This document shows, piece after piece, positions 19,503-58,737 of a DNA stretch of 64,000 bases (position 1 is the first letter of the stretch; the number at the start of each line of letters is the position of its first letter). The position numbers were made by a program, and so were the translations under genes. The notes under the pieces were generated by a model, which made no database searches, was not told the DNA's origin, and was given only the letters and a program-made list of their open reading frames with translations. The DNA comes from Candidatus Sumerlaea chitinivorans (GTDB lineage: Bacteria; Sumerlaeota; Sumerlaeia; Sumerlaeales; Sumerlaeaceae): positions 1,579,144-1,643,143 of the forward strand of contig CP030759.1 of the NCBI GenBank assembly GCA_003290465.1. The letters are read 5' to 3'.

Positions 19503-19672
19503 GCCTAAATTCCTCTCGGTTGCAGAATGGCCTCTGTTGGCAATTGATTTGACCGCGGACCCAGCACCCACGTAAATCAGCGTGCCATGCACTTTAGAAA
19601 TGCGAACCACCACGAGGAAGTTCTCGCAAGAATGAAAATGTGGAAGGGAAGAGTTCGTTGAAGGGGTCGGGT

Positions 19673-21316
19673 ATGGTGCGTGCGGTGTTGCGAGGAGGCG
19701 GGCAACGACGTTTCACGTTGGTGGTGCTTGGCTTTTGCATGGCGGCGCTCGTGGGGTGCATGGGGCGAGACGACAGGGCATCGTCGGGAAGTCCGCTGCA
19801 GGGGGGCAAACGACGTTTGGTGTGGGCCTTGCGGGGCAACGCCGAGGTGACCGACCCGGCGATGGTTGCGGATACGGACAGTGGGTTTGTCGTTGCGCAG
19901 GTGTGTGAGGGGTTGGTGCGCTTCGAAGGGGGGTCGTCGAAGGTGATTCCAGCGCTGGCAGAGAGTGAGCCTGAGATTAGCGCGGATGGCATGCGTTGGA
20001 AATTTCGTCTTCGGCGAGGAGTGACTTTCCATGACGGAACACCTCTAACAGCAGAGGCGGTCCGGTTTTCGTTCATGCGGCAGATGGACCCGAGCCATCC
20101 TTACTACGTGGCGGGGCGGATGACGGCGGCACGGCGACTATTTGGCGATCCGACTACGACGGAATCGGTGATCGTGCGCGACATCGAGACGCCGGACGAC
20201 TGGACAGTGGTCTTCGTGCTGGCCCAGCCGCGAGCTTCCTTCGCGCGCAACCTTGCGGTGCCCCAAGCAGCGATCGTCAGCCCGCGAGCAGTCATGAATG
20301 CAGCGGCTGATGGGCAAACCACTATGGTGGGCACTGGCCCATTTCGGGTGGCAGCCGTGCGGCCGGGTCGCTCCATTGTGTTGGAACGAAACGCACGTTA
20401 CTGGGGGGAGCCGCCGCGGATCGAGTCCGTGGAACTACGCATGATCAGTGAGGCCGTGGAGCGCGAGCGCGCCTTGCGCCAACAACAGTGCGATGTGGCA
20501 GCGGGCTTGCCTCCACAAACTTTGGCCACATTGGCGCGCTCGAAGGAGTTCATGGTGACCACAGCTGCCGGGATGACCGGTTGCGTGTTGCTGCTGAATC
20601 ACGCGGTACCACCTCTGGATTCCGCGCGCGTGCGGCGAGGCGTTGCGCTGGCAATTGGGCGCGAGAAATTGGTCCGTGATTTGCTTTTTGGTTACGGCGA
20701 TGCTGGGTATGGATGGTTGCCACCAGCCATGGTGGAAGCCTCGCGCCCGGACGCTCAGAGCGAAAACTTCGGCGATGTGAACGAGGCCAAACGCTTATTT
20801 GCGGAAGCGGGTGTTCCCGGTGGGTTTACCGTCAAACTCATGGCGCTGGCCGTGCCCCGTGTTTACAATCCCGCGGGGGCCGCTGTGGCGGAAAAGGTGG
20901 CGCAGGACCTGACGGCATGCGGACTAACGGTTATCCTCGAACGGGTCCCGCTGGAGGTTGCCTCGCGAAGAGTGGCGGACGGGGACTATCAAATGGCGGT
21001 GTGGGGTGCAGTGGCATGGAACGGGGACCCAAGCGCGTACTGGGCGGATCTTTTTGGCGATGGACAGACAAATGCGCTGAACTACCGCTCGGGGGAACTT
21101 CATGCCCTGCTGAGGCAATTAGAGACCGAAATCGGGGAGCCGCAACGCAAGGCAACATGCGCACAAATCGAGAAGCTACTCCACGCAGAAATTCCATGCG
21201 TCCCGCTCTTTTATGCGCGGCAGGCAGTGGTGGCAAGACGTGAAGTACGCATCGAACACTTGAATGTGATGGGGCTGACACGGCTGGATAGCGTTAGCAT
21301 GGTCCGGGAGGAGTGA
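19673..21316 (+). CDS. ABC transporter substrate-binding lipoprotein, peptide/nickel (SBP_bac_5) family
   Basis: The 547-residue extracytoplasmic binding protein has the typical DppA/OppA layout. The start at ATG 19673 gives a lipoprotein signal peptide with lipobox ALVGC (Cys 29); an upstream GTG at 19640 lacks a ribosome binding site. Family features: LVWALRGNAEVTDPAMVAD near residue 50, the conserved block with RRGVTFHDGTPLTAEAVRFS, GTGPFRV and the late WNGDPSAYWADLFG. The ligand is probably a peptide or similar small molecule, but the permease and ATPase genes are not nearby, so it is an orphan here. Its stop lies 6 bases before the AddA-like gene, so co-transcription is likely. Confidence 0.87.
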   Translation: MVRAVLRGGGQRRFTLVVLGFCMAALVGCMGRDDRASSGSPLQGGKRRLVWALRGNAEVTDPAMVADTDSGFVVAQVCEGLVRFEGGSSKVIPALAESEPEISADGMRWKFRLRRGVTFHDGTPLTAEAVRFSFMRQMDPSHPYYVAGRMTAARRLFGDPTTTESVIVRDIETPDDWTVVFVLAQPRASFARNLAVPQAAIVSPRAVMNAAADGQTTMVGTGPFRVAAVRPGRSIVLERNARYWGEPPRIESVELRMISEAVERERALRQQQCDVAAGLPPQTLATLARSKEFMVTTAAGMTGCVLLLNHAVPPLDSARVRRGVALAIGREKLVRDLLFGYGDAGYGWLPPAMVEASRPDAQSENFGDVNEAKRLFAEAGVPGGFTVKLMALAVPRVYNPAGAAVAEKVAQDLTACGLTVILERVPLEVASRRVADGDYQMAVWGAVAWNGDPSAYWADLFGDGQTNALNYRSGELHALLRQLETEIGEPQRKATCAQIEKLLHAEIPCVPLFYARQAVVARREVRIEHLNVMGLTRLDSVSMVREE

Positions 21317-21322
21317 AGACGT

Positions 21323-24300
21323 ATGGTGGACAAGTGGACACCCAATCAAAAGCAGGCGATTCAGGCGCGGGGCAACGCCGTGGTCACTGCGGGGGCGGGT
21401 GCAGGCAAGACGCTGGTGCTTGTCGAGCATTACTACCACGTGCTCGTGGAAGCGCATCCCGATTGGCCCATCGAAAGCGTGGTCACGGTCACGTTTACGC
21501 GCAAAGCGGCGGCGGAAATGCTGGCGCGGGTGCGGCGAAAATTCGACGAGGTGCTTGCGGCACCGGGGACGGCCCCAAGCACTCGGCAACGCGTCCAAGA
21601 GCTGCGCGAGCGCTTAAGCCTTGCGCCCATCGGTACGATCCACGCCTTCTGCGCAAGGCTACTCCGCAAGTACTGTTTCGAGTGCCAGAGTGATCCGGAA
21701 TTCGAGGTGCTGGAGGCAATCGCGTACGACCAACTCGTGGATGAGTGCATCGAGGCGACCTTCAACGAGTGGAAACGCATGGAGACGGAAGACGAGCGGG
21801 TGCGGGCACAGAAGCTGCTGCGGCTGATGTCCGTCTTTGGTAACCGCAGCCGGCGATCGCGGGGGGACAGCCTCCGCAAGGTGCTCGCTGAAATGCTGGC
21901 CAATCGCCACACGTTTGAACCCGTGGCCCAGCGCTATTTGGCGGGCGATGAGGCGGCATTGGCGCAAACCATTCAGCAATTCCTTCAGGCGCTCCCCCCA
22001 GAAGAACTACCTGAGAGTGACAAGTCTGAGGCCAGTCAGGAGGAGCAGGAAGCCCTGCGCATCGAGAGAGAGGCCGAAGCGACTGCGACGGTACTTCATC
22101 CACTGGCGGAACTCTACCTTGCAGTGCTCGAGGAGTTTCGGCGCCGCTGCAGCGCCGCAACAAATGCGCGCCGCACGGATTTGATGGACTACGCAGAGCT
22201 CGAACTGCGCGTACGCAATTTGCTGTTGGAAAACCCGCAATTCCGTCAGCGGGTTTACGAGGACATTCATCACCTCATCGTGGATGAATTTCAGGACACG
22301 AGTCAGGTGCAGTGGGAGATCTTTAAGTCGCTGATTTGCGACGCCCAAGGAGCCCTCGCACCGGAGCGATTCTTTGCGGTGGGGGATTTCAAGCAATCGA
22401 TCTATGGTTTCCGCCAAGCCGACTTGCGCGTGCTTCAGGAGGCGAAGGAGCTTGTCTCGCAGGACCCAGACAGGCAATGCATTTCGCTCAATGAGTGCTT
22501 CCGGATGGCGCCTGAGCCGTTGCGGACGGTAAACCGGCTTTTTGCGAATCTGTGGGAACAGTACGCTGAGAAAACGGGCATTGATCCGGCGGACTTGCCG
22601 GTGTTCGAGCCCCTTGTGGGGGTGAGAAATGAGACGCCGGGGAGTGCTTGCCGAATTCATGTGCGGGTCATCGCGGATAAGAGGCCAACGGCTGCTGTCC
22701 GGCGGCAGGGAGAGGCCGCGGTGGTGGCCGAGACGATTCGTTGGCTGTGCGGTGCGGACGGCGGGCAAAAGCTCCATGAGCCCGGAGAGATCGCCATCTT
22801 GGTGCGCAAGCGCGAATTGTTTGGAGGATTTGAAGCAGCATTGCGCGAACTCCAAATACCGTATTTGACAGTTGCTGGTGGAGGGCTCTTTGCGAGACCG
22901 GAAGTGCGCGACGTCGTGGGGGTGTTGCAGGCGGCCTTCGATCCTTACGACGATTTCGCGCTACTGGCGTTTCTGAGGGGAAGTTTAATAAATTGTTCCG
23001 ATGAACTGTTGCTTAAGATCTCCTTGGAAAAAGATGGGTTCGCACGCCGGCACTTATGGACGCGATGCCGAACGGCGTTGGAAGAGAATGCGGGGCCCTC
23101 GGGCGTGCCGCTGACGGCGATCGAGGCTGATCAACTGCGTTTCGCGGTGGAGTTACTCAATGAGATCCACGCGCATTTGGGATTGGTGCCGATTGACGAG
23201 CTGCTGCAGAAAGTCGTGGAACGTACGGCCGCATTGGAGATTTGGCGCCGATGCCCAGACGGGGGGCAGGCGGTCGCGAACATCCAAAGGCTATTGCACA
23301 TTGCTCGGCAGCACCGAACCAGTGACTTAGAAAGTTTCTTGGAATTTGCTGAGCGGCAGGTGGACGCGCGGGAGGGTGAGGAAGAATCCATGCTCGAGGC
23401 TGCGGCGGCCGGGGCTGTGAAAATCATGACCATCCACGCAGCAAAAGGGCTGGAGTTTCCAGTGGTGTTCGTGGCTGGGCTGAGCGAAAATTGGGGCGGC
23501 CGGCAAGATACCGTTCTCTGCGACGGCAAGTGGTTCGCAGTTTCGAAACCCACCCAAACGGGGACCAAGCCCATGCTGTTCGAGTACTTGGAGAAGATGG
23601 AGCAAAGGCGGGAACTGAGTGAGGAATTGCGCGTCCTCTATGTGGCTGCCACCCGCTGCCGAGATCGGCTGTTTTTGTGCTCAAGCGATGCGGAGGGGGG
23701 GCGCTCACATTCTGGGGAAAGCTCGGGCACGAAGAATACCTCAACCAGCTCACGGACAAAAAAAGAAGACACGACTTTTGCAGCCTTCCTGTGCCGTGCT
23801 CTCGACACTCGAAGGCAGGAAGAAGTGGAAGTGGACGGGCTCCCTGGTGCGCTCAGCCACGCACTGGGTGTAACTGATTTCTCGTCGTCAGATGCTGGCG
23901 TTCCGGCGATTCTTGTCCGATGGCAAGATGAGGTTCAGGCATCAAAGCGTCGGGCGGAGAGACAGACGAACGAGTCTGGCATGGATCCCGTACCGATAAC
24001 CACACCAGACTTCGAAGCGGCCGTGCTGGAAAAAGAACGCTTTCTCCGGGAGGAATTTGGATTGACGGAGGTTCAGCAAGACGAGGGGGCAACGCAGGAC
24101 GCTGGCGCGATATGCGGTCCAACGTACGACGTCCCACCTTTCGCACCAGCTATCGTGGGCAGACCAGTTCATCGGGATTTGTTTGTGACGGCATTACTTG
24201 ATTTCTGGGAATGCCCACTACTCTTTTTCAGGCGACGTGTATTGGAAATCGAGGACATGCCTGCAACCGAGGCGGCAAAACAAGGTGAGTTGAGTGGAGC

Positions 24301-24964
24301 CGTCCGCGGGCAACTCATGCATGAAGCGATCGAGCGCCTGCTGCAAGGAAAGGAGAACCTCGGGGCATATCTGACAGAGCGAATTGTGGAGGTAGCTCCC
24401 TTCGAGCTCGAAAAGGCGCGCGAACGTGCCGCCGATTTCGTAACCAGCATTGAGCGCGCTCAAGCTCTGGGGCTGTTCCGAGAAATCGAAGAGGCCGCGG
24501 AGAAACGTTTTGAAACCGCGTATACGATTTGTGAAGAGAACTTTCTAATCACGGCGCGATTTGATTGTGAGTATGTGACGATAGACGGTAGGGTCGAGAT
24601 CGCTGACTTTAAAACGGACACGAAACTCGACGATGCAGGTCTGAACCGATACCGTAAACAAATGATGCTTTACCTGTGGGTGTTGTCGCGGTTCCGTGCC
24701 GAACAGTCGCTGTATCGAGCGCGGTTAATCTTTACGCAGCTCGGTAGATGCGAGGTGATTGAGGCCACTGCAAAAGAACTTGAGGACTTCTGTTGCAGCC
24801 TGCGTGAATTGCTTGCTGAGTACGAACGTTACTCTGAGCGTTTTTGCCGCGGCGATGTGGTCTTTGATGACCAGCTTGTGGAGGCATTGCGAGAATGGTG
24901 TCGGCGGCGCTCCGCCCCCTGCCCCGAGCATTCGCAAGTCGAAAAGGTAGGCGAGCATGCGTAA
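21323..24964 (+). CDS. addA: AddA-like UvrD-family helicase with C-terminal RecB-type nuclease
   Basis: The 1213-residue protein joins a superfamily 1A helicase to a PDDEXK nuclease, the arrangement of AddA, which resects double-strand breaks for RecA. Walker A TAGAGAGKT is at residues 22-30, with TFTRKAAAEML after it, the Walker B region HLIVDEFQDTSQVQWE near 318, GDFKQSIYGFRQAD near 354, and late motifs ITIHAAKGLEF-like (KIMTIHAAKGLEFP near 700) and LYVAATRCRDRLFL. The nuclease domain has GQLMHEAIERLLQG near 994 and EIADFKTD near 1092-1098, with the Asp and Lys of the active site. No addB is adjacent, and the last 8 bases overlap the following TPR gene. Length matches AddA of Firmicutes. 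Confidence 0.9.
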   Translation: MVDKWTPNQKQAIQARGNAVVTAGAGAGKTLVLVEHYYHVLVEAHPDWPIESVVTVTFTRKAAAEMLARVRRKFDEVLAAPGTAPSTRQRVQELRERLSLAPIGTIHAFCARLLRKYCFECQSDPEFEVLEAIAYDQLVDECIEATFNEWKRMETEDERVRAQKLLRLMSVFGNRSRRSRGDSLRKVLAEMLANRHTFEPVAQRYLAGDEAALAQTIQQFLQALPPEELPESDKSEASQEEQEALRIEREAEATATVLHPLAELYLAVLEEFRRRCSAATNARRTDLMDYAELELRVRNLLLENPQFRQRVYEDIHHLIVDEFQDTSQVQWEIFKSLICDAQGALAPERFFAVGDFKQSIYGFRQADLRVLQEAKELVSQDPDRQCISLNECFRMAPEPLRTVNRLFANLWEQYAEKTGIDPADLPVFEPLVGVRNETPGSACRIHVRVIADKRPTAAVRRQGEAAVVAETIRWLCGADGGQKLHEPGEIAILVRKRELFGGFEAALRELQIPYLTVAGGGLFARPEVRDVVGVLQAAFDPYDDFALLAFLRGSLINCSDELLLKISLEKDGFARRHLWTRCRTALEENAGPSGVPLTAIEADQLRFAVELLNEIHAHLGLVPIDELLQKVVERTAALEIWRRCPDGGQAVANIQRLLHIARQHRTSDLESFLEFAERQVDAREGEEESMLEAAAAGAVKIMTIHAAKGLEFPVVFVAGLSENWGGRQDTVLCDGKWFAVSKPTQTGTKPMLFEYLEKMEQRRELSEELRVLYVAATRCRDRLFLCSSDAEGGRSHSGESSGTKNTSTSSRTKKEDTTFAAFLCRALDTRRQEEVEVDGLPGALSHALGVTDFSSSDAGVPAILVRWQDEVQASKRRAERQTNESGMDPVPITTPDFEAAVLEKERFLREEFGLTEVQQDEGATQDAGAICGPTYDVPPFAPAIVGRPVHRDLFVTALLDFWECPLLFFRRRVLEIEDMPATEAAKQGELSGAVRGQLMHEAIERLLQGKENLGAYLTERIVEVAPFELEKARERAADFVTSIERAQALGLFREIEEAAEKRFETAYTICEENFLITARFDCEYVTIDGRVEIADFKTDTKLDDAGLNRYRKQMMLYLWVLSRFRAEQSLYRARLIFTQLGRCEVIEATAKELEDFCCSLRELLAEYERYSERFCRGDVVFDDQLVEALREWCRRRSAPCPEHSQVEKVGEHA

Positions 24965-25631
24965 ACTTTGGGCAACAATCTGCCTGCTGGCTGGGCTTGG
25001 ATTCCTGCTAATTGGCTATTATACCGGAAGCACATATTACGGCCGCCTTTATGATGTGATGGCAAGCCGGGGGGTTCATTCGATCGATGTTTATGAAGCC
25101 CGCCTAAAACGCGCAGTCGGTTACGACCCAACTTATGGGTATGCGCGCGCGAAGCTTGCTCAATATTATCTGCGCCACGGCACGTCGAGTATGGCACTAA
25201 ATGAGCAGCTGAAAGCGATGGAGACGTTCAACTCCGTTCGAAACTTCGCTCAGCTGGGCACAATTTACCTACGATTTGGAAAAGAGAAGGAAGCGAAGGA
25301 GACGTTTGAGCGGGCGGTGCGGATGAATCCGAATTTTATCGAGGGTTGGGAACGTCTCGCTTTACTGGCCCTCAGAGAGGGAGATTCCGAGCGTGTCCAA
25401 GAACTCACAGGTGAAATTTTGCGGCGCGATGTGAAAAACTTAAATGCCTACTACCTTCGCGCGAAGGATTCCGAACAGCGTGGCGACCTAAATGGGGCTC
25501 TTCTCAATTACCAAATGATTTCTGCGGAGTTGTATCGGCGAAAAAGCCCACTGAAGGACGCGATGTTTACTGAGAAAGACATCCGTGAAAAATTGGATCT
25601 TTTGAAAAAGCAGCTGGAGTCGCAAGGTTGA
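24957..25631 (+). CDS. Membrane-anchored TPR protein (surface polysaccharide operon)
   Basis: The 224-residue protein has an N-terminal membrane segment (MRKLWATICLLAGLGFLLIG) followed by tetratricopeptide-type helical pairs, for example VYEARLKRAVGYDPTYGYAR, AQLGTIYLRFGKEKEAKETF with FERAVRMNPNFIEGW, and LALLALREGDSERVQELTGE. It probably sits in the periplasm tethered to the inner membrane as a scaffold. ATG 24957 lies inside the end of addA, so it may be translated by coupling, and its own stop overlaps the TTG of the next gene. Unlike its two relatives downstream, it lacks the C-terminal carbohydrate-binding-like module. Confidence 0.8.
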   Translation: MRKLWATICLLAGLGFLLIGYYTGSTYYGRLYDVMASRGVHSIDVYEARLKRAVGYDPTYGYARAKLAQYYLRHGTSSMALNEQLKAMETFNSVRNFAQLGTIYLRFGKEKEAKETFERAVRMNPNFIEGWERLALLALREGDSERVQELTGEILRRDVKNLNAYYLRAKDSEQRGDLNGALLNYQMISAELYRRKSPLKDAMFTEKDIREKLDLLKKQLESQG

Positions 25632-27100
25632 AAAGCCGCACGGTCGGGAAGCTTATTGTTTTAATTGTTGTCGTGGCCGCAGGTGCGTTTGGCTTTCCCG
25701 CCGCATACCACTGGCTCATCCTCAACAAAGCGCAGTTTTTAATAAATCAACAAAAATGGACAGAGGCGCAGACTCTGATTGAGAGCGTGGATCGGCCGGG
25801 GGAAGTGGCGGGACGTGCTGCGCGGTTGCTTGCAACCGTAAATATGCACACCGGAAGATTTCGCGAAGCGTTAGAGCTTTTGAGTTATCAACCACGCGTG
25901 GCGAGTGTCGTTTTCGATCAAGCGATCTGTCTTTACGAGTTGGATCAGGAAGACCAGGCAAGAGAAGCTTTCAGAGAGGTGTGCCAGAAGGTTGAAGAGT
26001 TGCCCGAGCCGCTGCAGATGTTAGCTGTGGCGGGCTCGGCAATCCTTGGGGGTGAAGTGTTGGCCTTTGAAGAGGAGATGCCCGAGGGGCTTCCCCGTGC
26101 ATACCGAATCGTTTGGCACAGCCTTCAAGCTCGAGCTGCCTTTCAAATGCTGCATTTAGAGAAAGCATTGGATTTGGCCAGAATCGCTCTCTCGCGAGGG
26201 GATCAAAATAACCGGACCCGTCGAATTGCCCTTGCGCTGGCAGCAATGCGCGGCGACTTCGCGCTTGCGCAAAGCTATGCCGATGCGCTCGAGCAGCCGG
26301 TTCCTCTGTTGCAGCAAGCTTTGTCCGAAATGGTGGAGCTCGAGACGCACGTGACAACAAAGAGCATCTCGGTTGAGGTCGCGCAAGCTATACTTAAACA
26401 GCGTCGGGAAATTGCTCGGGGTAAGGCGTGGGTTCTGAGCCAGCTGGGTCAACGACAACCCCAAACCACTGGTGTAGAGGTCGCTTTGGAATGGGTTCAG
26501 CGTGTGCTGGAAACGAACCCAGAGGACTTACTGACAGGGCTTCTCACAGCGGACTTGCTCGCGGCTCTGCACCGAGAACGCGAGGCCTACGCATGGCTCC
26601 AGAGCCTGCTGGCTCGCATGCAGGTCTACCGCGTTTATGTACGGGCGAGGGACTTAGCGGGTGAGCCGTTGGACAACTTGGAGGAACAAGAGCTGTTCGG
26701 GGACTACAGCCGAATCGTCAAATGGGTGTCAGCTGAGGAACTTGTCACTACAGGCGGAATTGCAAAAGAACAGTATTTGGCGTTTTATACGCGTGGGGAG
26801 TGTGGCTTCGAGTTCGAAGCGCCCGCTACGGGGATCTATCGCATTAGCGTCACTGCGAAGGGGGATTGCGCCTTCGGCCTCTGTCCACGAGTAAAGATCT
26901 GGGTGGACAACCAACCTATGGAAGAGATTTACGTTGCTCGCGAAGGATGGGACTGCTACTCGATTGCGAGGTCGATGGAACGAGGGAAGCACTTGATTCG
27001 CATCGAATACATCAATAATTCGGAACGATTGCTTTCAAAAGAAGAAGACCGAAATCTATATATTCACAACGTTATCGTGACAAAAACGGAGAGTGACTGA
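25628..27100 (+). CDS. TPR protein with C-terminal carbohydrate-binding-like beta-sandwich module
   Basis: The 490-residue protein starts at a TTG overlapping the upstream stop (TTGA). Layout: N-terminal membrane anchor (about 8-30), TPR-like helical repeats (about 35-355), then a beta module at about 380-485. The module contains GFEFEAPATGIYRISV, GLCPRVKIWVDNQPMEEIYV, GKHLIRIEYINN and EDRNLYIHNVIV. This pattern (P-x-V-x-I-W-V-D-x-Q, H/E-x-I-x-I-x-Y/F-x-N-D, E/D-D-R-N-L-Y-I) is that of calcium-dependent xylan-binding-type modules (CBM60/CBM36-like family), so binding of the exported glycan is a reasonable inference. The module recurs in the product of 29142-30344. It probably acts at the periplasmic face in polysaccharide assembly. 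Confidence 0.78.
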   Translation: MKSRTVGKLIVLIVVVAAGAFGFPAAYHWLILNKAQFLINQQKWTEAQTLIESVDRPGEVAGRAARLLATVNMHTGRFREALELLSYQPRVASVVFDQAICLYELDQEDQAREAFREVCQKVEELPEPLQMLAVAGSAILGGEVLAFEEEMPEGLPRAYRIVWHSLQARAAFQMLHLEKALDLARIALSRGDQNNRTRRIALALAAMRGDFALAQSYADALEQPVPLLQQALSEMVELETHVTTKSISVEVAQAILKQRREIARGKAWVLSQLGQRQPQTTGVEVALEWVQRVLETNPEDLLTGLLTADLLAALHREREAYAWLQSLLARMQVYRVYVRARDLAGEPLDNLEEQELFGDYSRIVKWVSAEELVTTGGIAKEQYLAFYTRGECGFEFEAPATGIYRISVTAKGDCAFGLCPRVKIWVDNQPMEEIYVAREGWDCYSIARSMERGKHLIRIEYINNSERLLSKEEDRNLYIHNVIVTKTESD

Positions 27101-27101
27101 G

Positions 27102-29138
27102 GTGGATTCACAAATTTCGGGAGCTGAGACGTCGTCTGCGAGTTTGGAGCCAAGTAAAAGCGAGCGCACCCTACTCCCAGATGATGTCATTCGTGAGATT
27201 TTTGTCTACTGGTGGGCCCAACGAGCGTTTGTGCTCAAGGTTCTCGGAATCGTTGGGATCCTAACGATTGCAATTCTGCTCGTCATTCCGAACCGATACC
27301 GAGCCGAAGCAAAAGTAATTATTCTGCCACCGAAGTTCTCCTCGGAGATCCGGACGGAACCACTTTCCGTGATTACCGCTAAGAACCTGCTGCAGAGCGG
27401 TGAACTCGTGGATCAACTCATTACCACGATCCGCAGAGCAAGACCGTACGCTGAGAAATTCCTAAAACAGTACGAGACGCCTGATCGCGCTGCGACGACG
27501 CTCAAGGCATTGGGAGCAACGGGGATTGCTCGCAAACTTGGGAGCGCAGACAGCGATCTGGCAGCTTTTTTCTCGCGGATAAGTGCGGCAGAGCTCTCGG
27601 CATTGGCGAGCTTGGATGAGTCCGAGATCGAGGATTGGACGATCGAGAAGCTAAGCAAGGCCCTTGATTGCGAAGAGATCATAGAAAAGAAAACCGCCGC
27701 CGATGTGAAACTTTCGCCTCTTCTGAACCTTTACGCGGTGGCAAACTCAGGAGTGAAGGCCCAGTTGCTCGTCAACACATGGGCTATGCTCTTTGAAAAG
27801 AAATACGATGAAATTACGAACCAAAAGACGCGTTACCAATACGATTATATCCTCAAGCAGCAGCAAGAAGCCGAGCAAGCCCTCGCGAAACAGCAGCAGG
27901 CGATTGTCGAGTTCAAAGCGGCCAACAACTTGGACCTGATGCTGCGGGAAATCGAAGAATATTCTGCAGACTATAAAGAGTTTCTCAATCGACTGGTGCA
28001 AAAGCGTCACGAACTGGAAAACAGCCGACGCCGATTACAGGAATTGCAAGCACAAGTGGCAGAGCTTACCGACAATGGTGTCTGGGTCGGGGAGATCGAA
28101 GCATCCGCTCTAATGAACGCAAGCGCAGAGACAACTTTGCCACTCACGATTTCCGCTGTGGGGACTTCCCCTTACGCGGAGTCGCGGCGCCGGGTTCTTG
28201 AGTTGCGAAACCGCATCCTTTTTTACTTAGGACAACTCAACAAGTTCCGCAGCCAAGAGCCTGTTGAGTTAGTGGAAAAGGAGTTGGCACAGCTTCAGCG
28301 AGACTACCTTGAGGCGGTGGGAAAACTGCGAGCTGGTGAGGTTCGTCTCAACGTGTTAGAGCGGAGTCTTGCAGCTCTCGAGGAGCGGCTGACGAGCACT
28401 CCTCGTTATCTTATCCTCTTCAAGGATGTTCCGGACCAGAGTGTGGCAGAGGCAATTCGCACAGGCCAGCGACAACAACTTTCCACTCTGGCGGGAGTTC
28501 AATTCCGGAGGGAAGAAATTAATCCCGAGTGGACCCTTCTCACAGAACAAAAACTCAAGCTGGAAGCCGAGTATCTCCAAACAAGCAACGAGGTCACCCA
28601 ACTGCGTGAAAAAGTCGCTCGTTACGAGCGTGAAGCACGTGACCTTCAAGTGAGGCTTTACCAAGCAAGAGTCACTGAGAAGGCATTGCAAGATTCCTTG
28701 GAGATGCGTATCAAGTCGAGTCGCGAACTTCTGCAGAACTATTTGGACGCCCGCAATGCCATCCACAATACGGCGTTGCAGATCGGAATGCTCGAGGCAG
28801 AGATTCGGCAATTAGAAGAGGACACGACGAACACCCGACGCATGGCCGAGGAGGCTCAAAAACGATACAACGAAGCGTCGGCACGCCTACAGCTGCTGGA
28901 GATTCAGCTTCGGGCAGTTCAACGCAATGCGGATCTGCTCACTCAAAAACTCCAAGATGCCCGAATGGCGATTGCGCAGCAAATGAGCGACGTGTCGATC
29001 GCAGCACCTGCAGCCACGCCGACGAAACATTACTTCCCGCCACGAACGATTCTGCTCATTGGAATTTTGTTCCTCACCATGGTGAGTACTCTTGGCATAC
29101 TGGGACGCATTCGTTACGTGGAGCTAAAACGAGCGTGA
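27102..29138 (+). CDS. Wzz/GumC-type polysaccharide co-polymerase, long coiled coil
   Basis: The 678-residue protein has the two-membrane-segment topology of chain-length regulators: TM1 in VLGIVGILTIAILLVIP (about residues 47-63) and TM2 in TILLIGILFLTMVSTLGILG (about 648-667). In between lies a large, mostly coiled-coil domain (about 220-330, 380-430, 480-640). The segment after TM1, NRYRAEAKVIILPPKFSSE, is typical Wzz. No cytosolic tyrosine-kinase domain follows. Start: GTG 27102 has GGAGAG 8 bases before it; a GTG at 27093 in the same frame is the alternative. Neighbouring TPR/carbohydrate-module proteins overlap or nearly overlap, so it likely builds one envelope complex with them. Confidence 0.82.
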   Translation: MDSQISGAETSSASLEPSKSERTLLPDDVIREIFVYWWAQRAFVLKVLGIVGILTIAILLVIPNRYRAEAKVIILPPKFSSEIRTEPLSVITAKNLLQSGELVDQLITTIRRARPYAEKFLKQYETPDRAATTLKALGATGIARKLGSADSDLAAFFSRISAAELSALASLDESEIEDWTIEKLSKALDCEEIIEKKTAADVKLSPLLNLYAVANSGVKAQLLVNTWAMLFEKKYDEITNQKTRYQYDYILKQQQEAEQALAKQQQAIVEFKAANNLDLMLREIEEYSADYKEFLNRLVQKRHELENSRRRLQELQAQVAELTDNGVWVGEIEASALMNASAETTLPLTISAVGTSPYAESRRRVLELRNRILFYLGQLNKFRSQEPVELVEKELAQLQRDYLEAVGKLRAGEVRLNVLERSLAALEERLTSTPRYLILFKDVPDQSVAEAIRTGQRQQLSTLAGVQFRREEINPEWTLLTEQKLKLEAEYLQTSNEVTQLREKVARYEREARDLQVRLYQARVTEKALQDSLEMRIKSSRELLQNYLDARNAIHNTALQIGMLEAEIRQLEEDTTNTRRMAEEAQKRYNEASARLQLLEIQLRAVQRNADLLTQKLQDARMAIAQQMSDVSIAAPAATPTKHYFPPRTILLIGILFLTMVSTLGILGRIRYVELKRA

Positions 29139-29141
29139 TTT

Positions 29142-30344
29142 GTGCCCTTGATAGAGAACGGGGGTAGTCGCGACGTGAAACTACGTCTCGCGATTTTTTC
29201 GATCTTATTTGTTGGCTTCTGGATTGCTGCCCTTAGCATTGAACCGATCGCGTTGCGTTTCTCTTATCTTCAAGTGGAGAATTATGCGTCCATTGTGCGC
29301 AGAGCCATTGCTGCAAAGGACTATCGGCGGGCGGAGCAAGTGCTAAGGCGGCGCATTGACAAAGTCTTCTATGACTTCGATGCACATTACCTGTTGGCTG
29401 AAACCTATGCAGCTCAGGGTTTATACAAAGAAGCAGCTGAGACTATCCGAACTGTACTGAGTAAAGTTCCCGCTGCTCGTGCTAATCCCGTGCGATCCAT
29501 TGGCTACGATGAACCCAAGACCTACTATCTTCTGGCCCGCTACCTATGGCTGGCTGGCCAATATCTCGACGCCGGTGAGATCTCCCGGGCAGCATTAGAT
29601 GCGGGGCATCCGCTTGTCCAAGGTGAGATGACGACCTACCTGAGCGGCAAGGTAGAGAACCCTTCTGCAGCTGAGGCGATCGCGAAACTGGCGATGAAAC
29701 TTAAGGCACCCGAGGCCTTTGCGCAAGCCTTCCGTGTGCTAAAAAGTGGCGGAGAGGAAGCCAGCGCCTACCGCTTACTCGCAGAATGGATGGACAGGGT
29801 GCGCAAGATGCCCGTCGGGGCTGACATGGTTTTGCGAGCAGCCCGATCTTTAGATCCGCAAAACCCATCCTTGGTGCTTGCGCAGTTCATTTGGCTCAAC
29901 AAGTATGGAGGGGATGCCGGGACATCGGAAAGCAAAGCGTTGCTCGAGAGTCTGCGCTCTTCGCCGGGCATTCAGGAAATCGGAACGGGCGCCTTCCGAG
30001 TGACGGAAGGGCAACGGATTACACCGACAACGCTTGTTCTGGGGCGCAATGGTCGCGCGACTGCAAAGTTGGCCACAAGCGTCTTTCGTCCGAAGCGTCT
30101 CACCTTTGTGGCCTCCGGCACGTGGGCAATCGGCTTGTATCCCATCGTCCTTGTCCGGTGCAACGGGAAAGAAGTCCAACGCTTATACGTGGATAACCCA
30201 GACGGTCGCGTTTATGATCTGGAGCTTTGGCCGCAAGGTGCCCCGAAGCAAATTGAACTCGAATTTGAGTTTACGAACGACGCGTTTGAGCCTTACACGC
30301 GAGCCGACCGCAACGTTCAAATCAAACATTTATTCCTTTACTAA
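29142..30344 (+). CDS. Second TPR protein with C-terminal carbohydrate-binding-like module
   Basis: The 400-residue protein has an N-terminal membrane segment (LAIFSILFVGFWIAALSI), TPR-like repeats (about 45-270: RAIAAKDYRRAEQVLRRRID, YLLAETYAAQGLYKEAAETI) and a C-terminal module from about 290. The module parallels that of the gene at 25628: GLYPIVLVRCNGKEVQRLYV, KQIELEFEFTND, then ADRNVQIKHLFLY at the very end. It follows the Wzz-like gene by 3 bases and overlaps the next gene by one base (TAATG). The GTG at 29142 has only a weak ribosome binding site; a GTG at 29175 is an alternative. Role inferred: glycan-contacting scaffold for the co-polymerase. Confidence 0.77.
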   Translation: MPLIENGGSRDVKLRLAIFSILFVGFWIAALSIEPIALRFSYLQVENYASIVRRAIAAKDYRRAEQVLRRRIDKVFYDFDAHYLLAETYAAQGLYKEAAETIRTVLSKVPAARANPVRSIGYDEPKTYYLLARYLWLAGQYLDAGEISRAALDAGHPLVQGEMTTYLSGKVENPSAAEAIAKLAMKLKAPEAFAQAFRVLKSGGEEASAYRLLAEWMDRVRKMPVGADMVLRAARSLDPQNPSLVLAQFIWLNKYGGDAGTSESKALLESLRSSPGIQEIGTGAFRVTEGQRITPTTLVLGRNGRATAKLATSVFRPKRLTFVASGTWAIGLYPIVLVRCNGKEVQRLYVDNPDGRVYDLELWPQGAPKQIELEFEFTNDAFEPYTRADRNVQIKHLFLY

Positions 30345-32650
30345 TGCGAGATTCCGATATGATGCGAATGCGTTTATTGACCCGATGCCTACCGGCTTTT
30401 GCCCTTGCGTGGCTTACTGCAAACCTCGGGGAGGCAAGCTTAGCTCGCTCAGAAAGCGAACGACTTCCTGAAATTGCGCACCGGGAAGAGCGAGTTGGGC
30501 CGGGAAGCACGCACATTCAGGAGTTTCATTCGAGTGGCCCACTGCTCATCAACATTCTTAAGGTGGATCTCAGCTCCACGGGTGTCAAACTGCGCGCAGC
30601 TAAGGGAAAAGGCTCCCTTTTCACGGGGGCAACTGTCTTAGACATGGTTCGGCGTATGGAACGCGCAGGCCAGACGGTTGTCGGAGGCGTGAACGCAGAC
30701 TTCTGGACGAACAGCCCAAGAATGTTCGTACCCGTCAACCTCTTCGTAAGCGAGGGGATGACCCACACACTCCCCCATCAGAAACTGAAAGCCCCTCGAG
30801 CCGTGTTCTGCATCACGGAGAGCGGGAAAGTCGTGATGACTCCCATGCAGGCCAAATTGGAGGTCCGCGCGGGGAAAAGTCGCGCAATCGAGTGCAAGCT
30901 CAACGAATGGGTGACCAGTCGCGGGGCTGTGCTTTTTACTCCCATCGTGGGGGAACCCATTCCGACGAAGCGATTCAGCAAAGCGCTACTTCTCGAGCAG
31001 ATGACTCCGGAGTTTGTTCCGAATCGGCCAGCACGCGCTCGGGTTTTGCGTGCGGTCGAGGGCACAACGGTTAGTCTTACGAGCGGGACGCTCCTACTTG
31101 CGTTTCATCGCGATCAGCTGAGCTTCGCCCGGGAATTGCGGCCGGGCAGCGAACTAGCTCTCCACGTCCGAGTCCCACAAGTGGCAGAGCCGCTAAAGCT
31201 CTGCCTTGGCGGCGGGCCCATGCTCATTAAAAATGGCCGTGTGTACGTGGATTGGAAAGAGGAGAAAATCCTACGCAGTTTCAGCGCCGATCGGCATCCG
31301 CGTACCGCGATTGGTATCGGCGAGGACGGACGGACCCTTTACCTCGTCACCGTGGATGGGCGACAACCACTGCGAAGCATCGGAATGGGGCTGTATGAGC
31401 TCGCGCTTTTCATGAAGAGTCTGGGGTGCCGCGACGCCATGAACTTCGATGGAGGGGGCAGCACCACCATGGTGGTACGCGGTGAAGTTGTGAACAAGCC
31501 GAGCGACCGGTTGGGTCCACGCACTGTCACCAATGCCCTACTCGTGATCTCTGAGGCGAAGCCCGGCTCCCTTGCCTATCTGAAGATTTATCCAACGGAT
31601 GAACTCCTTCTCGTGCCGGCGGGGGCGACGGTGGAACTCAAGTGCCGTGGTTTCGACCAGAACTATAGCCCATTGAAGATTGCAGACGGTTTGCTGACGT
31701 GGACTGCCGACAGTGCGGTCGGAAATCTGGTCACTTCTGGATCCATTTGCCTCCTGCGAGCGACTGATAGCCCTGCAGACGGTGAGGTTGTGGCGACAAC
31801 GTGTACAACAACCACGCAGGAATGTGCGACGGCACGCAAACGCATCCGCGTGGTTCGGATCGATAAACTGGAGGTAGAACCCGAGGTTGTTGTAGTGCAA
31901 AGTCGCGAGTGCGTGCCGTTTGAGATTCGCGCTCAAAGTGGTTCCGTTGAGGTGCCGCTACGCCCCGAGATGGTTGAACTCCTCTTTGATGAAAAGAAGG
32001 TGACAGCGACTCTGAACCAAGTTTGCGGTGTGACAACCGCAGCAACGACGCTCATTGCCCGCGTGGGAAAGGTCGAGAGCCGAATTCCGTGTTATGTGAA
32101 TCTCGTCGAATCGCGGATTGTGGAGAGCTTTGATTCTCCCGTGACCGCCACCGTGTATGGGACCCGTTTCGACAAGAGGAAAACAGCCCTGGTGTGCGAT
32201 CCTAAGCGGGCGCACTCCGGAAGCGGGTGTTTGGCGTTTCGTTACGCCATGACGCGAGGCGGAATCAGCAAGATTGCGTTCCCGTTGAATGTTAGGATCC
32301 CTGGCAGGCCGGCCCGTCTTGGGATGTGGATTTATGGCGACGGTAAGGAAGCGTGGGTGCGTGGCGAAGTTGAGGACGCCGTTGGGAATCGCTTCCTTCT
32401 GGACTTCACAGACGGCAGCACCGGGGTGTACTGGAAAAAAGAATGGCGACGCGTTGTGGCGCCTCTGCATAAGCTCGTGCCTCGCCCCCAAAATCCGGGA
32501 GCGAAACCCCAATTTCCGATTACTCTTCGGGAATTGTACGTAGCTCAGGATCAAGAAGCTCTCAAAGCGCAGGGCGAGCTTCTCTTCGATGAGTTGTGCG
32601 CCGAATATCCACCAAACAGCGCCGCAGACAGCACATCTCCGGTCCACTGA
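30344..32650 (+). CDS. Exported phosphodiester-glycosidase (NAGPA) domain protein
   Basis: The 768-residue protein has an N-terminal signal peptide (MMRMRLLTRCLPAFALAWLT to about GEASLA) and a NAGPA-type phosphodiester glycosidase domain from about 60 to 405. The domain shows VVGGVNADFWTNS near 108, HPRTAIGIGEDGRTLYLVTV near 322 and the hallmark MNFDGGGSTTM near 366. NAGPA-type enzymes cleave sugar-1-phosphodiester links, and bacterial members are common in exopolysaccharide loci. The region 410-590 looks like Ig-type beta domains, and 590-760 (FRYAMTRGGISKIAFPLN, GRPARLGMWIYGDG, LLDFTDGSTGVYWKKEW) is galactose-binding-like. As last gene of the TPR/Wzz operon it may trim, release or modify the exported polymer. 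Confidence 0.82.
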   Translation: MRDSDMMRMRLLTRCLPAFALAWLTANLGEASLARSESERLPEIAHREERVGPGSTHIQEFHSSGPLLINILKVDLSSTGVKLRAAKGKGSLFTGATVLDMVRRMERAGQTVVGGVNADFWTNSPRMFVPVNLFVSEGMTHTLPHQKLKAPRAVFCITESGKVVMTPMQAKLEVRAGKSRAIECKLNEWVTSRGAVLFTPIVGEPIPTKRFSKALLLEQMTPEFVPNRPARARVLRAVEGTTVSLTSGTLLLAFHRDQLSFARELRPGSELALHVRVPQVAEPLKLCLGGGPMLIKNGRVYVDWKEEKILRSFSADRHPRTAIGIGEDGRTLYLVTVDGRQPLRSIGMGLYELALFMKSLGCRDAMNFDGGGSTTMVVRGEVVNKPSDRLGPRTVTNALLVISEAKPGSLAYLKIYPTDELLLVPAGATVELKCRGFDQNYSPLKIADGLLTWTADSAVGNLVTSGSICLLRATDSPADGEVVATTCTTTTQECATARKRIRVVRIDKLEVEPEVVVVQSRECVPFEIRAQSGSVEVPLRPEMVELLFDEKKVTATLNQVCGVTTAATTLIARVGKVESRIPCYVNLVESRIVESFDSPVTATVYGTRFDKRKTALVCDPKRAHSGSGCLAFRYAMTRGGISKIAFPLNVRIPGRPARLGMWIYGDGKEAWVRGEVEDAVGNRFLLDFTDGSTGVYWKKEWRRVVAPLHKLVPRPQNPGAKPQFPITLRELYVAQDQEALKAQGELLFDELCAEYPPNSAADSTSPVH

Positions 32651-33743: not shown

Positions 33744-36662
33744 TCACTGTTTTGCTTTCTCAAGCTCTTGCAGGGCACGCGCTCGGTAACGCGACACATC
33801 AGGATCGTTGGGATGCTGTCGAAGCAAATTCCACGTAATCGTTGCAACGTAATCCCACTGCCGAGCTGCCTGCAAATACGCAGCAGCCCGCAGCCCCTCA
33901 TCCAATCGGAGTTGGATTTTGCGTTCGCGAGCTAAATTGCCAAGCTGTCCGGCGCCCAGTGCGGTTTCCCCAAACACAAGAAGTCGCAGACGTTGGCGAT
34001 AATACCAAAACTCGGCGCTACCCTCCTGGACATAGAGCAGTGCACGCTTCTGACCAGCACGCCGCGCAAGTTCGTAGCGCAAAACATCGAGCTCTGGGTC
34101 ACGCCCAACAATGGGCAGTAGGCGATCTGCAATTGCCAAGGCCCGTGTGGTTTCCTCGCCGGCCGCGAAGTACAGCATTGCGGCTCTTTGCACGATTTCC
34201 GCACGGGGCTTTTCTTGTAGTAGAGCTTCGATGATTGGTCTCCCTAAGCGGTATCGAGTCTGGAACCACTCGCGTCGCTGCGGGGAAGTGGTTTGCACAT
34301 CAAGCTCGGGGGGTGGCCACAAGGCCTCCATCAGGTAAAGTCGGGCTTTCGTGAGGCGCACACTCCAATGGTCCCCCACCGCTTCGTTAAGTAACCCCAA
34401 CGCCTTCCATGCGGAGGCAAAATTGCCACGCATTGCCATTTCAAGAAGCGGAACCAAGTACTGGGATTCGCCAAAGTCTGGGTCCACCTCGAAAATGCGA
34501 CGTCGCATCGCTGCAGCACGTTCATTGTCCGGAGGGTTGAGGTGATTGTACACTTCCGCGAGCTCGAAGAGCGACGCAACGTCCGCGTTGTTTAGAGAAA
34601 TCGCCCCCTCAAGGGCACGTTTGGCCGACAAGAGGTAGTTATACACATCAGGCTGGAGTCTCCAAAGCATGTGATAGGCTTGCCCAATGAGATAAAAGAT
34701 ATAGTGGTAACGGAGCTCGCCCTTTTCGACGAGATTCGTTGCGTGATTGATGGCAGAGCCATAATTGCGGAACGCGGAGAGTCGCGCGTTCTCAGCTTCT
34801 TTGGTTTGTCCCGCGGCTTGGAGAGCTCGCCACTGGAGGTAATCGAACTGCCCGAGCAGACTGAACGCATGGCTGAGTGCTTCCAGAGCCTCTCCGTTGA
34901 GTGGACTGAGCTTTGTAGCTTTGCGGGCGAGGTCGCGCGCACGAGTTGCGGCCGCGTATTTTGCTGCACTTTCGGAGGGTGGGAGCTGGCGCGCCGTCAT
35001 GGCCCACTTCGATGCATCGCTGGTCAGGATGTCCGCGACAAAATCGCGAAGAAAGAACTCGTATCCGAGAGGGACGAGTAGCCACGTGGCCGCAACTGCA
35101 ACGAGCGCCCCCACCCGATTCCAGCGCAAGCCAATCCGAGGCTGAATGCTCGTAGGAGAATCATTCGTTTGCAGCTGCTCTGTCTGCCCATTCTCGCGCG
35201 GAAACGCATACGCTACTCCTGCCGTCACAACTGCGAGGAAACCAATCGGTGCCACATGAAAGGGAAAATCGAAAAATGCGTGGACCATGACCGCCCCTAG
35301 AGGCCACACCATGCCACCTAAAAGCATTTTTTCTCGCTTCGGAATGGAAGCTCGGTAATGTGTGCGGATGCGTCGTGCGATAAGCCAAACCGCCCAACCC
35401 GCTAACGCAAACCCTACGAAACCACACTCGACCACAAGTTGCAGGTAATCGTTGTGCGCAAGGTCCGTGCGCTTCGCCGTTGTCCCCAACACAGAGTCCG
35501 GATGCTTAAGAAAGTATGCCCCATGGGCTGGGGGATACACATATTGGAAGGAGCCAAGTCCATGGCCCCAGAGTGGGCTTTTTGCAATTAGCGGCAACGA
35601 AACCACAAAAATCCGCAGCCGTGTCTCCTTCAGGAGCTGCGCAGGGCGAAAATCCCTCCGTATGCGCTCGGTGAGGGGCACAGCATGGCGCGCAAGCGGG
35701 TTGACCGTTGGGGCAACGCTCTGAACCAATGCCACCATCAGGATGGCGGCAAGAACTCCCGCGAGGCCGTGCACGAGACGCAACCGGTAACCATGAAGTC
35801 GGGCGATCCAAGTCCCCTCCCCCGCCACCATGAGGGCACCCAGAATCCAAATTGCCCGACTTTGGGCAGCAACGATCACAAAAAGGATAAGAACGACCGT
35901 TAACGCGGCTGCAAGGCGATAAAGCCAGCGTCGCGCAAGAAATACCACTGGTAAAGCAAAGCCGAGAGGAAATAACAGAAACGAAGAAAGGCCAGTGTTG
36001 TGCCCGATCAGCGAGCCAACCCGATTACGTGGATCTTCGAAATTTGGAAGGAACCACCAAGCCAACCCGACGTGCTGCAGGAAAGACACGAAGGCTACGA
36101 TCGCGCCAACCACAATAACCAAGCACACACATTCCCAGACGCGATGAACATTAGGTCGGAGGGCAACGACGACAGAAAAGACGACCACCCCCATTGCGAC
36201 AAGGAACAGCGTCCGAAGCGAATAGTGCACAGTCGGCGAAACCAACAGGACGCCAGCCGCCGCAAAGACAAGGAAGAGGCCACCGGCGACGCCGGGATGG
36301 GATATGTAGCTGCGTACCGCCTCTCGCCAAGAAGTTGGTCTGTCGAAATGAGTGTCTTGCCTATGTAGTCCTATTGTTATGGCAATGTACACAGAGTAAA
36401 ATGCGATGATAGCCAAAGAGATGGCGGCTGCCACCGTCTCCTTGTACACCAACGGTGAATGATTGAACGCAAGTTCGGGGCGGAGCTGCTCAAGATAGAT
36501 CTTCCCGAGTACTCCCCCTCGAATCCCCATGAGATCGAGTTTCCCAAGATAGAAATCCGGAAGGCGCAACGGATACACAAGAGCTGTGCCGGCAACCAAT
36601 GCCATGACAAGCAGCCACAGCAACCGTTCTATTCTTTCCTTCCACATAGCGAACTGCGTCAT
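33744..36662 (-). CDS. O-antigen ligase/polymerase-like membrane protein with C-terminal TPR domain
   Basis: The 972-residue protein has about 12 hydrophobic segments in its first 560 residues and the Wzy_C (O-antigen ligase/polymerase) signature: GHGLGSFQYVYPP followed by AHNDYLQLVVECGFVGF around residues 365-420. After the last membrane segment (VAVAATWLLVPLGYEFFL) comes a roughly 400-residue soluble region with TPR-like helical pairs (TKLSPLNGEALEALSHAFSL, ISLNNADVASLFELAEVYNH, PNDPDVSRYRARALQELEKA). Family members ligate or polymerise lipid-linked glycans at the periplasmic face. It lies opposite rnc and 1.1 kb from the polysaccharide operon, which suggests a shared pathway. The stop-to-stop gap to rnc is 118 bases without a clear terminator. 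Confidence 0.85.
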   Translation of the reverse strand: MTQFAMWKERIERLLWLLVMALVAGTALVYPLRLPDFYLGKLDLMGIRGGVLGKIYLEQLRPELAFNHSPLVYKETVAAAISLAIIAFYSVYIAITIGLHRQDTHFDRPTSWREAVRSYISHPGVAGGLFLVFAAAGVLLVSPTVHYSLRTLFLVAMGVVVFSVVVALRPNVHRVWECVCLVIVVGAIVAFVSFLQHVGLAWWFLPNFEDPRNRVGSLIGHNTGLSSFLLFPLGFALPVVFLARRWLYRLAAALTVVLILFVIVAAQSRAIWILGALMVAGEGTWIARLHGYRLRLVHGLAGVLAAILMVALVQSVAPTVNPLARHAVPLTERIRRDFRPAQLLKETRLRIFVVSLPLIAKSPLWGHGLGSFQYVYPPAHGAYFLKHPDSVLGTTAKRTDLAHNDYLQLVVECGFVGFALAGWAVWLIARRIRTHYRASIPKREKMLLGGMVWPLGAVMVHAFFDFPFHVAPIGFLAVVTAGVAYAFPRENGQTEQLQTNDSPTSIQPRIGLRWNRVGALVAVAATWLLVPLGYEFFLRDFVADILTSDASKWAMTARQLPPSESAAKYAAATRARDLARKATKLSPLNGEALEALSHAFSLLGQFDYLQWRALQAAGQTKEAENARLSAFRNYGSAINHATNLVEKGELRYHYIFYLIGQAYHMLWRLQPDVYNYLLSAKRALEGAISLNNADVASLFELAEVYNHLNPPDNERAAAMRRRIFEVDPDFGESQYLVPLLEMAMRGNFASAWKALGLLNEAVGDHWSVRLTKARLYLMEALWPPPELDVQTTSPQRREWFQTRYRLGRPIIEALLQEKPRAEIVQRAAMLYFAAGEETTRALAIADRLLPIVGRDPELDVLRYELARRAGQKRALLYVQEGSAEFWYYRQRLRLLVFGETALGAGQLGNLARERKIQLRLDEGLRAAAYLQAARQWDYVATITWNLLRQHPNDPDVSRYRARALQELEKAKQ

Positions 36663-57468: not shown

Positions 57469-58737
57469 TCAGCGGCGCGGCAGCGATATTGTACTTAGGG
57501 AATTCTGAATCAGAAGCCAAACTGTGGTCAAAAGGAATGCAGCCACAGCCGCAATCCCCGCAACAAGCGTACGTTTCGGCCAGACCCGCAGCTCAGGCAA
57601 AACGGGCTGCGATAACACGCGCAAGTCGCCGGCGGTGGGGAGGCCTGTGCCATCCCACTCTCGATAGCTTGCAGCAGCGGTTCGCAATCCGTCGAGGTAG
57701 CGTTGCATGACCTGACGCGTCTGCATTTTCGTGTCAATTTCACGCGTTGCACGACTGAGGGTCTCCTGAAGCGCCGCAACTTGCGACTGAAGCTCGGCAA
57801 TCTCTTTTTCCAATTGCGTGATTGAGCTGCTCAAGAGGCGCTCTTCGGCTTGGAGCTGCGCAACTTCGGTCGAATTGGCGTCGGCGCCGCTCACCTTCAG
57901 TTTCTCAATTTGCAAGCGGACACGCGCAAGACGGCTGACCATTCCCTCAGGCTTGGGGATCGGCTGCTGAATGAGAACTTGGAGATTGGAGGCATCCTGC
58001 ATGCGTGGCTGATAAAGCGGCATCACCTTTTGCAGCTCTGCGGGAGCCAACAGATCCATTTTCTCGGCGAGTAGCTTCTGCTGAAAGGCTAATTCTGCAC
58101 TGGCGCGGGCCTGTTGCGCCTCGGCAGCGCGAATCTCGCTTTCCACCTGTGCAATTTCCGCTGCCACCTTTTCGGCTCGTAGGCGCGCTTCTGCCGTCGC
58201 AAAGTTTCCGAATTTTTCGATCAGCCGCCGCTGCCAAGACTCGAGGAGAAAGCGGGTTTCTTCTCGCCCCCGGAACTCTACTGTCAATTCGATGACGGGA
58301 GAGACTTCTTTCCTTACGGTCGTGTCTTGGAGAATCTCTGTCTTCGCCTCAAACTGCTTTACGAACTTTTCGAAATCACCCGGCTTGCGACCAAACTTCT
58401 GCGTGAAATCATCATAAACAGCTCGCAGCAGTTCGGGATTTTCAGCCAACATCACTACGGTGTTCGGGTTCACTTGGTGTTGGTCATAGTACTGGAAACG
58501 GTTCACGTAAACTATTGCGGACGTCTTGAACTCCTCAGGGACGAACCACATGGCGATATAGGTGAGCACCGCGACCGCCAAAGCGATGCCGACCGGCCAC
58601 CGCTTGTTCTTCCACAAATAGACCAACCGTGGCGCGAACGTGTCCTGCAGTTCATTTCGACGAGTAATTGGCATAGTCAGGACGAGGCTAAGAATTCTCG
58701 AGGCGTTGTCAATGGATTCTCGACGAGGTACCGCCAT
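57469..58737 (-). CDS. Second Wzz-like polysaccharide chain-length protein
   Basis: The 422-residue protein has the Wzz topology: a cytosolic N-terminus, TM1 (VGIALAVAVLTYIAMWFVPE near 49-68), a periplasmic domain with FKTSAIVYVNRFQYYDQHQV and ending in coiled coils (about 185-345: AEKVAAEIAQVESEIRAAEA, EVAQLQAEERLLSSSITQLE), and TM2 near 393-413 (LVAGIAAVAAFLLTTVWLL) after the proline-rich PVLPELRVWPKR. It is shorter than the co-polymerase at 27102. ATG 58737 is tentative (GGGG 4 bases upstream); ATG 58674 is an alternative with no site. No other polysaccharide genes are adjacent. Confidence 0.78.
   Translation of the reverse strand: MAVPRRESIDNASRILSLVLTMPITRRNELQDTFAPRLVYLWKNKRWPVGIALAVAVLTYIAMWFVPEEFKTSAIVYVNRFQYYDQHQVNPNTVVMLAENPELLRAVYDDFTQKFGRKPGDFEKFVKQFEAKTEILQDTTVRKEVSPVIELTVEFRGREETRFLLESWQRRLIEKFGNFATAEARLRAEKVAAEIAQVESEIRAAEAQQARASAELAFQQKLLAEKMDLLAPAELQKVMPLYQPRMQDASNLQVLIQQPIPKPEGMVSRLARVRLQIEKLKVSGADANSTEVAQLQAEERLLSSSITQLEKEIAELQSQVAALQETLSRATREIDTKMQTRQVMQRYLDGLRTAAASYREWDGTGLPTAGDLRVLSQPVLPELRVWPKRTLVAGIAAVAAFLLTTVWLLIQNSLSTISLPRR

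Follow-up and report, generated by a model that had tools for sequence, protein, structure and literature searches.

Organization of the gene run

The question raised by this locus is what five closely packed genes, encoding TPR proteins, carbohydrate-binding modules, a Wzz-like protein and a glycosidase, may contribute to the making of a polysaccharide, and whether they amount to a new assembly machine. The window (the whole stretch of DNA that was analysed, 64,000 nucleotides) belongs to 'Ca. Sumerlaea chitinivorans', probably BY40, whose genome has been described as the first complete one of its phylum (PMC8092238). This genome (G000) is a single contig of 3,289,105 bases, and its gene content was probed by family searches. 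Inspection of the open reading frames of the window confirmed that all five genes, A to E, are complete at the positions given in an earlier, sequence-only reading:

24957..25631, + strand: gene A, TPR protein of predicted periplasmic location with a single N-terminal anchor in the membrane (Pfam TPR matches, hydrophobic N-terminus)
25628..27100, + strand: gene B, N-terminal anchor, TPR superhelix (~350 residues) and C-terminal CBM60 (residues ~385-490) (Pfam, AlphaFold, Foldseek)
27093..29138, + strand: gene C, predicted divergent Wzz-type polysaccharide co-polymerase, 681 aa, without a kinase domain (profile matches, two TMs)
29142..30344, + strand: gene D, second TPR-CBM60 protein, with N-terminal anchor, TPR and C-terminal CBM60 (residues ~300-400) (Pfam, TM 16-34)
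30344..32650, + strand: gene E, secreted protein of the NAGPA (phosphodiester glycosidase) type with additional domains at the C-terminus (PF09992, phmmer, motifs)
33744..36662, - strand: Wzy_C ligase/polymerase-type protein, candidate partner outside the run, 12 predicted TMs and C-terminal TPR (PF04932, 54.9 bits; TM prediction)

The genes had been described as joined by overlaps or gaps of at most 3 bases. This was true of C/D (gap of 3) and D/E (overlap of 1), but A and B overlap by 4 bases and B and C by 8. Topology prediction gave N-terminal hydrophobic segments in A, B and D, one such segment at either end of C, and a signal-type N-terminus in E. On this topology, A, B, C and D are all predicted inner-membrane-anchored proteins whose bodies lie in the periplasm.

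Upstream of the run, genes for a solute-binding protein and an addA-like helicase-nuclease (19640-24964, + strand) run into A with an 8-base overlap, and they keep this place before A in G029 and G033. A second Wzz-like protein (57469-58737, - strand; 422 aa, two TMs) stands alone in a neighbourhood of SecA and other unrelated genes. When the region was scanned for promoters and terminators, the number of sites did not exceed that in shuffled sequence.

Gene C as a predicted divergent co-polymerase

Gene C of the window alone scored 11.7 bits against Wzz, which was under the Pfam cutoff of 25.5. Wzz was nevertheless the sole Pfam family that matched all six C orthologues (best 2.5e-5), and when the C profile was aligned with the Wzz proteins of the phylum by hhalign, a match of 99.9% (E 4.5e-35) was obtained. 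The alignment took in both TM regions and the stretch before TM2. The predicted TMs of C, at 47-65 and 653-671, flank a long periplasmic coiled coil, and the AlphaFold model has a helical core. The model was of low confidence (pTM 0.38); the fold search with it returned generic coiled coils only and matched no PCP structure, and a PDB profile search with C gave no useful match. Judged by its profile and its two TMs, C is predicted to be a divergent Wzz-type polysaccharide co-polymerase (PCP), as had been proposed for the protein between the two TPR-module proteins.

CBM60 modules of B and D

B and D had also been read as TPR proteins ending in the same type of module, and both modules passed the Pfam cutoff of CBM60 (28.2 bits), that of B with 40.5 bits and that of D barely, with 29.0 bits. 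The AlphaFold model of B (mean pLDDT 89, pTM 0.85) exhibited helices at residues 2-357, followed by beta strands at 363-487. A Foldseek search with this model, which served as a check on the fold of the C-terminal module, returned TPR chains and, over a module-sized stretch, CBM35 (2w47, TM 0.65 by target length) and CBM6E; the support for a beta-sandwich CBM fold comes from the model of B and applies to B. Profile searches of the PDB with these modules yielded nothing useful.

In the 3.29 Mb of the own genome, CBM60 modules were found only in B and D, so their pairing around a Wzz is not a matter of chance. The two modules share an N(D/N)...DRN core with a CBM60 carried by a GH10 xylanase. 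CBM60 was enriched in Sumerlaeota, where it was found in 12 of 40 genomes, compared with 6 of 251 others (E<=1e-6). One CBM60 protein, that of G032, lies among housekeeping genes and was not counted as part of this system. The family was also present in proteins unrelated to polysaccharide synthesis, namely the GH10 xylanase and planctomycete cytochrome proteins, and because of the latter, membership of CBM60 is no proof of glycan binding. The planctomycete-type cytochrome/PSD proteins (L118:8060-10507 and L119:8694-11309) are an unexpected place for a carbohydrate-binding module.

Conservation of the run and related loci

Orthologues of C (E <1e-70) were found in six of the eight Sumerlaeaceae genomes, the remaining two being 66% and 80% complete. 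The order A-B-C-D was kept in all six. E comes directly after D in five of them, and in G035 it lies on another contig. In G029 the E gene consists of two ORFs, possibly as a result of a frameshift in a low-coverage MAG. A sequence scan of the genome contigs with C recovered Sumerlaeota members only, and one with E gave no match.

Relatives of the run were observed in other families. In G013, the order is RmlD - GT1 - A - B - Wzz - 13-TM protein - GT1, with the A orthologue at L031:3238-3939 (35% over 127 aa). CBM60 proteins (4/5 with TPR) stand beside Wzz, Wzy or glycosyltransferase genes in four further families, and in one organism that does not belong to the phylum. The gene orders were Wzz - TPR-CBM60 in G037 (with a counterpart of D at L032), TPR - unknown - DUF354/GT - 7-TM+CBM60 - Bac_transf - Wzy in G005, Wzy - TPR - TPR-CBM60 in G008, and TPR-CBM60 - C25 peptidase - Wzy in G016. 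G187, which lies outside the phylum, has an 11-TM/TPR/CBM60 protein (L120:9096-11930) between Wzy and two GT1 genes. A PMT-type glycosyltransferase-CBM60 fusion (L117:6414-8477) adjoins WecG in G136, also outside the phylum. As a tail of membrane glycan-assembly proteins, CBM60 may thus range beyond Sumerlaeota.

These results answered the question whether relatives keep the genes together: they do so across genera, and the TPR-CBM60/Wzz sets lie within polysaccharide loci. The two checks that could have refuted the earlier reading, on the gene neighbourhoods and on the fold of the C-terminal modules, both turned out favourably for it. Because this linkage recurs in G013, the other families and G187, a role of the run in polysaccharide assembly, predicted mainly from such gene neighbourhoods, is well supported. 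It might still be argued that the operon is a loose group of envelope genes, used in another process such as the assembly of glycoproteins or of peptidoglycan-linked polymers. TPR repeats are scaffolds of general use, CBM60 occurs in unrelated proteins, and the genes on either side of the run (such as addA-like, rnc and the solute-binding protein) are unrelated to it. However, the A-B-C(-D) order persisted where the flanking genes differ (G031, G034 and G035), and the relatives of the run were found within polysaccharide loci, so we consider this explanation improbable.

Distribution of OPX and of the other polysaccharide genes

The family search of the single contig of the own genome detected no OPX gene (Poly_export, PF02563), and the idea of an OPX hidden elsewhere in this genome was dropped, none being found. 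OPX was present in 28 of 40 Sumerlaeota genomes and in one of the eight Sumerlaeaceae (G035, which also carries A-B-C); it was absent from G013. Among 20 well-assembled genomes, OPX occurred in 1/7 of the A-B-C carriers versus 13/13 of the non-carriers (Fisher p 1.8e-4, kinship ignored), and since six of the seven carriers belong to one family, one or two events may account for it. The sharper anomaly, which had escaped the sequence-only reading, is that OPX is missing genome-wide and from most of the family.

One reading of this anomaly is that OPX has been replaced. The periplasmic TPR-CBM60 scaffold would then carry the polymer across the periplasm, in a cross between the Wzy-dependent and the synthase-dependent (TPR) types. 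Absence of OPX from six of the seven well-assembled carriers and from none of the 13 non-carriers is consistent with it, as is the role of TPR scaffolds as polymer carriers in synthase-dependent systems. But the carriers may go back to two independent events, A-B-C and OPX occur together in G035, and G016, G037, G005 and G008 combine TPR-CBM60 or CBM60 proteins with OPX. Moreover, all three TPR proteins are inner-membrane anchored, and none of the genes of the run was recognised as coding for an outer-membrane barrel. We therefore regard the replacement as unlikely. There is an equally slim chance that Sumerlaeaceae use an OPX-less, PCP-driven pathway with the inner-membrane-anchored TPR-CBM60 proteins as a periplasmic polymer conduit.

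Within the A-E run, no polymerase, flippase, glycosyltransferase or priming enzyme was found. The own genome contains three priming transferases, in largely housekeeping neighbourhoods, and 11 Wzy_C proteins. Such dispersal of the polysaccharide genes would explain their lack from the run, and the polymerase, flippase and priming enzymes are encoded outside it or are not among the genes recognised. The earlier statement that the run has no glycosyltransferase is correct, but the run is not a complete machine, the polysaccharide genes being scattered.

The Wzy_C/TPR protein downstream of E adjoins the run in G000, G029 and G033; its gene has another location in G031, G034 and G035. It was found in 40/40 Sumerlaeota genomes regardless of A-D, which weakened its candidature as a dedicated operon partner; it appears to be a universal envelope ligase/polymerase of Sumerlaeota. 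O-antigen pathways use Wzz without OPX, so that the run might also belong to an O-antigen-like route. Here A-D would control how long a chain grows, and the WaaL-like Wzy_C/TPR protein would ligate this chain to a lipid carrier in the periplasm. The product would follow the LPS route, OPX would never have been needed, and the TPR-CBM60 proteins would merely tune the co-polymerase or the ligase. The absence of OPX from 7/8 family genomes, the universal Wzy_C/TPR protein that adjoins the run in three of them, and a lipid A acyltransferase gene near the TPR-CBM60 locus of G016 point in this direction. Nevertheless, the Wzy_C/TPR protein is equally present without A-D and is located elsewhere in three of the A-D genomes, and C, with its 681 aa, exceeds the typical length of an O-antigen Wzz. 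The O-antigen-like route is therefore possible but somewhat doubtful.

Gene E

E had been described as a secreted NAGPA-domain protein, and this was borne out: besides its signal-type N-terminus, it scored 131.4 bits against NAGPA (PF09992) in Pfam, phmmer with E matched solved NAGPA proteins, and the signature (HPRTA, VDGRQP and N(L/F)DGGGS) was intact and conserved in eight orthologues. Its standing as an integral part of the run, which had been assumed as well, was not upheld. E is separate from A-D in G035, and full-length orthologues exist in families without A-D and in genomes without C, with no common neighbours recognised in the loci read. The link of E to the A-D run is confined to Sumerlaeaceae. 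As a candidate core subunit E was weakened by these results, and it is at most an associated editor of the product.

A model of the A-D module

The explanation we favour, and hold to be fairly probable, is that A-D make up a periplasmic module, anchored in the inner membrane, that serves polysaccharide assembly, with C as the co-polymerase, TPR proteins as scaffolds and E as an editor. The assembly would be of the Wzy/PCP type. The replacement of OPX and the O-antigen-like route are both narrower versions of this explanation. The kinase-less C would have as its partner a Wzy-type polymerase whose gene lies outside the run, and A, B and D may be attached around C as TPR scaffolds. The CBM60 modules of B and D could contact the growing or finished glycan, and this contact may either set the length of the glycan or hand it on. 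E, as a secreted phosphodiester glycosidase, probably acts on a sugar-phosphate linkage of the product, which it would trim or edit. The gene structure, the domain assignments, the predicted fold of B, the conservation and the neighbourhood of polysaccharide genes in other families are direct results; complex formation, glycan binding, chain-length control and the substrate of E are inferred. As a precedent among TPR scaffolds, the TPR domain of PgaA binds PNAG, its polymer, as well as PgaB, the enzyme that modifies PNAG (PMC9384988). A family of Sumerlaeota that mostly lacks OPX probably builds a surface polysaccharide in a way that has not been described before.

Comparison with known systems

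A literature search on TPR with Wzz and exosortase, on PCP with TPR and CBM, and on vCBM60 retrieved no paper. The closest resemblance of the run to Wzz/PCP-dependent (Wzx/Wzy) assembly is that C is a predicted PCP and that relatives of the run adjoin Wzy, glycosyltransferases, RmlD and a priming transferase. It differs in that the PCP is flanked by anchored TPR-CBM60 proteins and has no OPX in the genome, that C is without a kinase domain, and that the polymerase and glycosyltransferases lie outside the run.

Loci of the XrtA/PEP-CTERM type also have a TPR protein, PrsT, beside Wzz. A scored 41.7 bits against PrsT, which left the cutoff of 312 bits unmet. To our knowledge, the CBM60 modules have no counterpart in these loci. 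An exosortase/PEP-CTERM locus was ruled out, because the own genome is without an exosortase (no PF09721), while the control search was positive in another genome.

E shares the intact signature of NAGPA secreted glycosidases, and differs from them in its extra C-terminal domains and in its genomic link to a PCP operon.

Periplasmic TPR repeats are also a feature of the synthase-dependent proteins PgaA, AlgK, BcsC and PelB, where they are thought to bind the polymer and partner proteins (PMC9384988). In contrast to these, the proteins of the run have an inner-membrane anchor, CBM60 takes the place of the outer-membrane beta-barrel, and a PCP partner that of the synthase; of the synthase-dependent hallmarks, neither the outer-membrane barrel nor the synthase was found in the run. 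Between Wzy/ABC-type export, with PCP and OPX, and synthase-type export, with a TPR scaffold and a barrel, no crossover had been identified as of 2022 (PMC9603273). A PCP that is consistently flanked by TPR-CBM proteins, in hosts without OPX, is a candidate for such a Wzy/synthase crossover. A dedicated glycan-binding module that may contact the chain at the co-polymerase would also bear on how chain length is measured.
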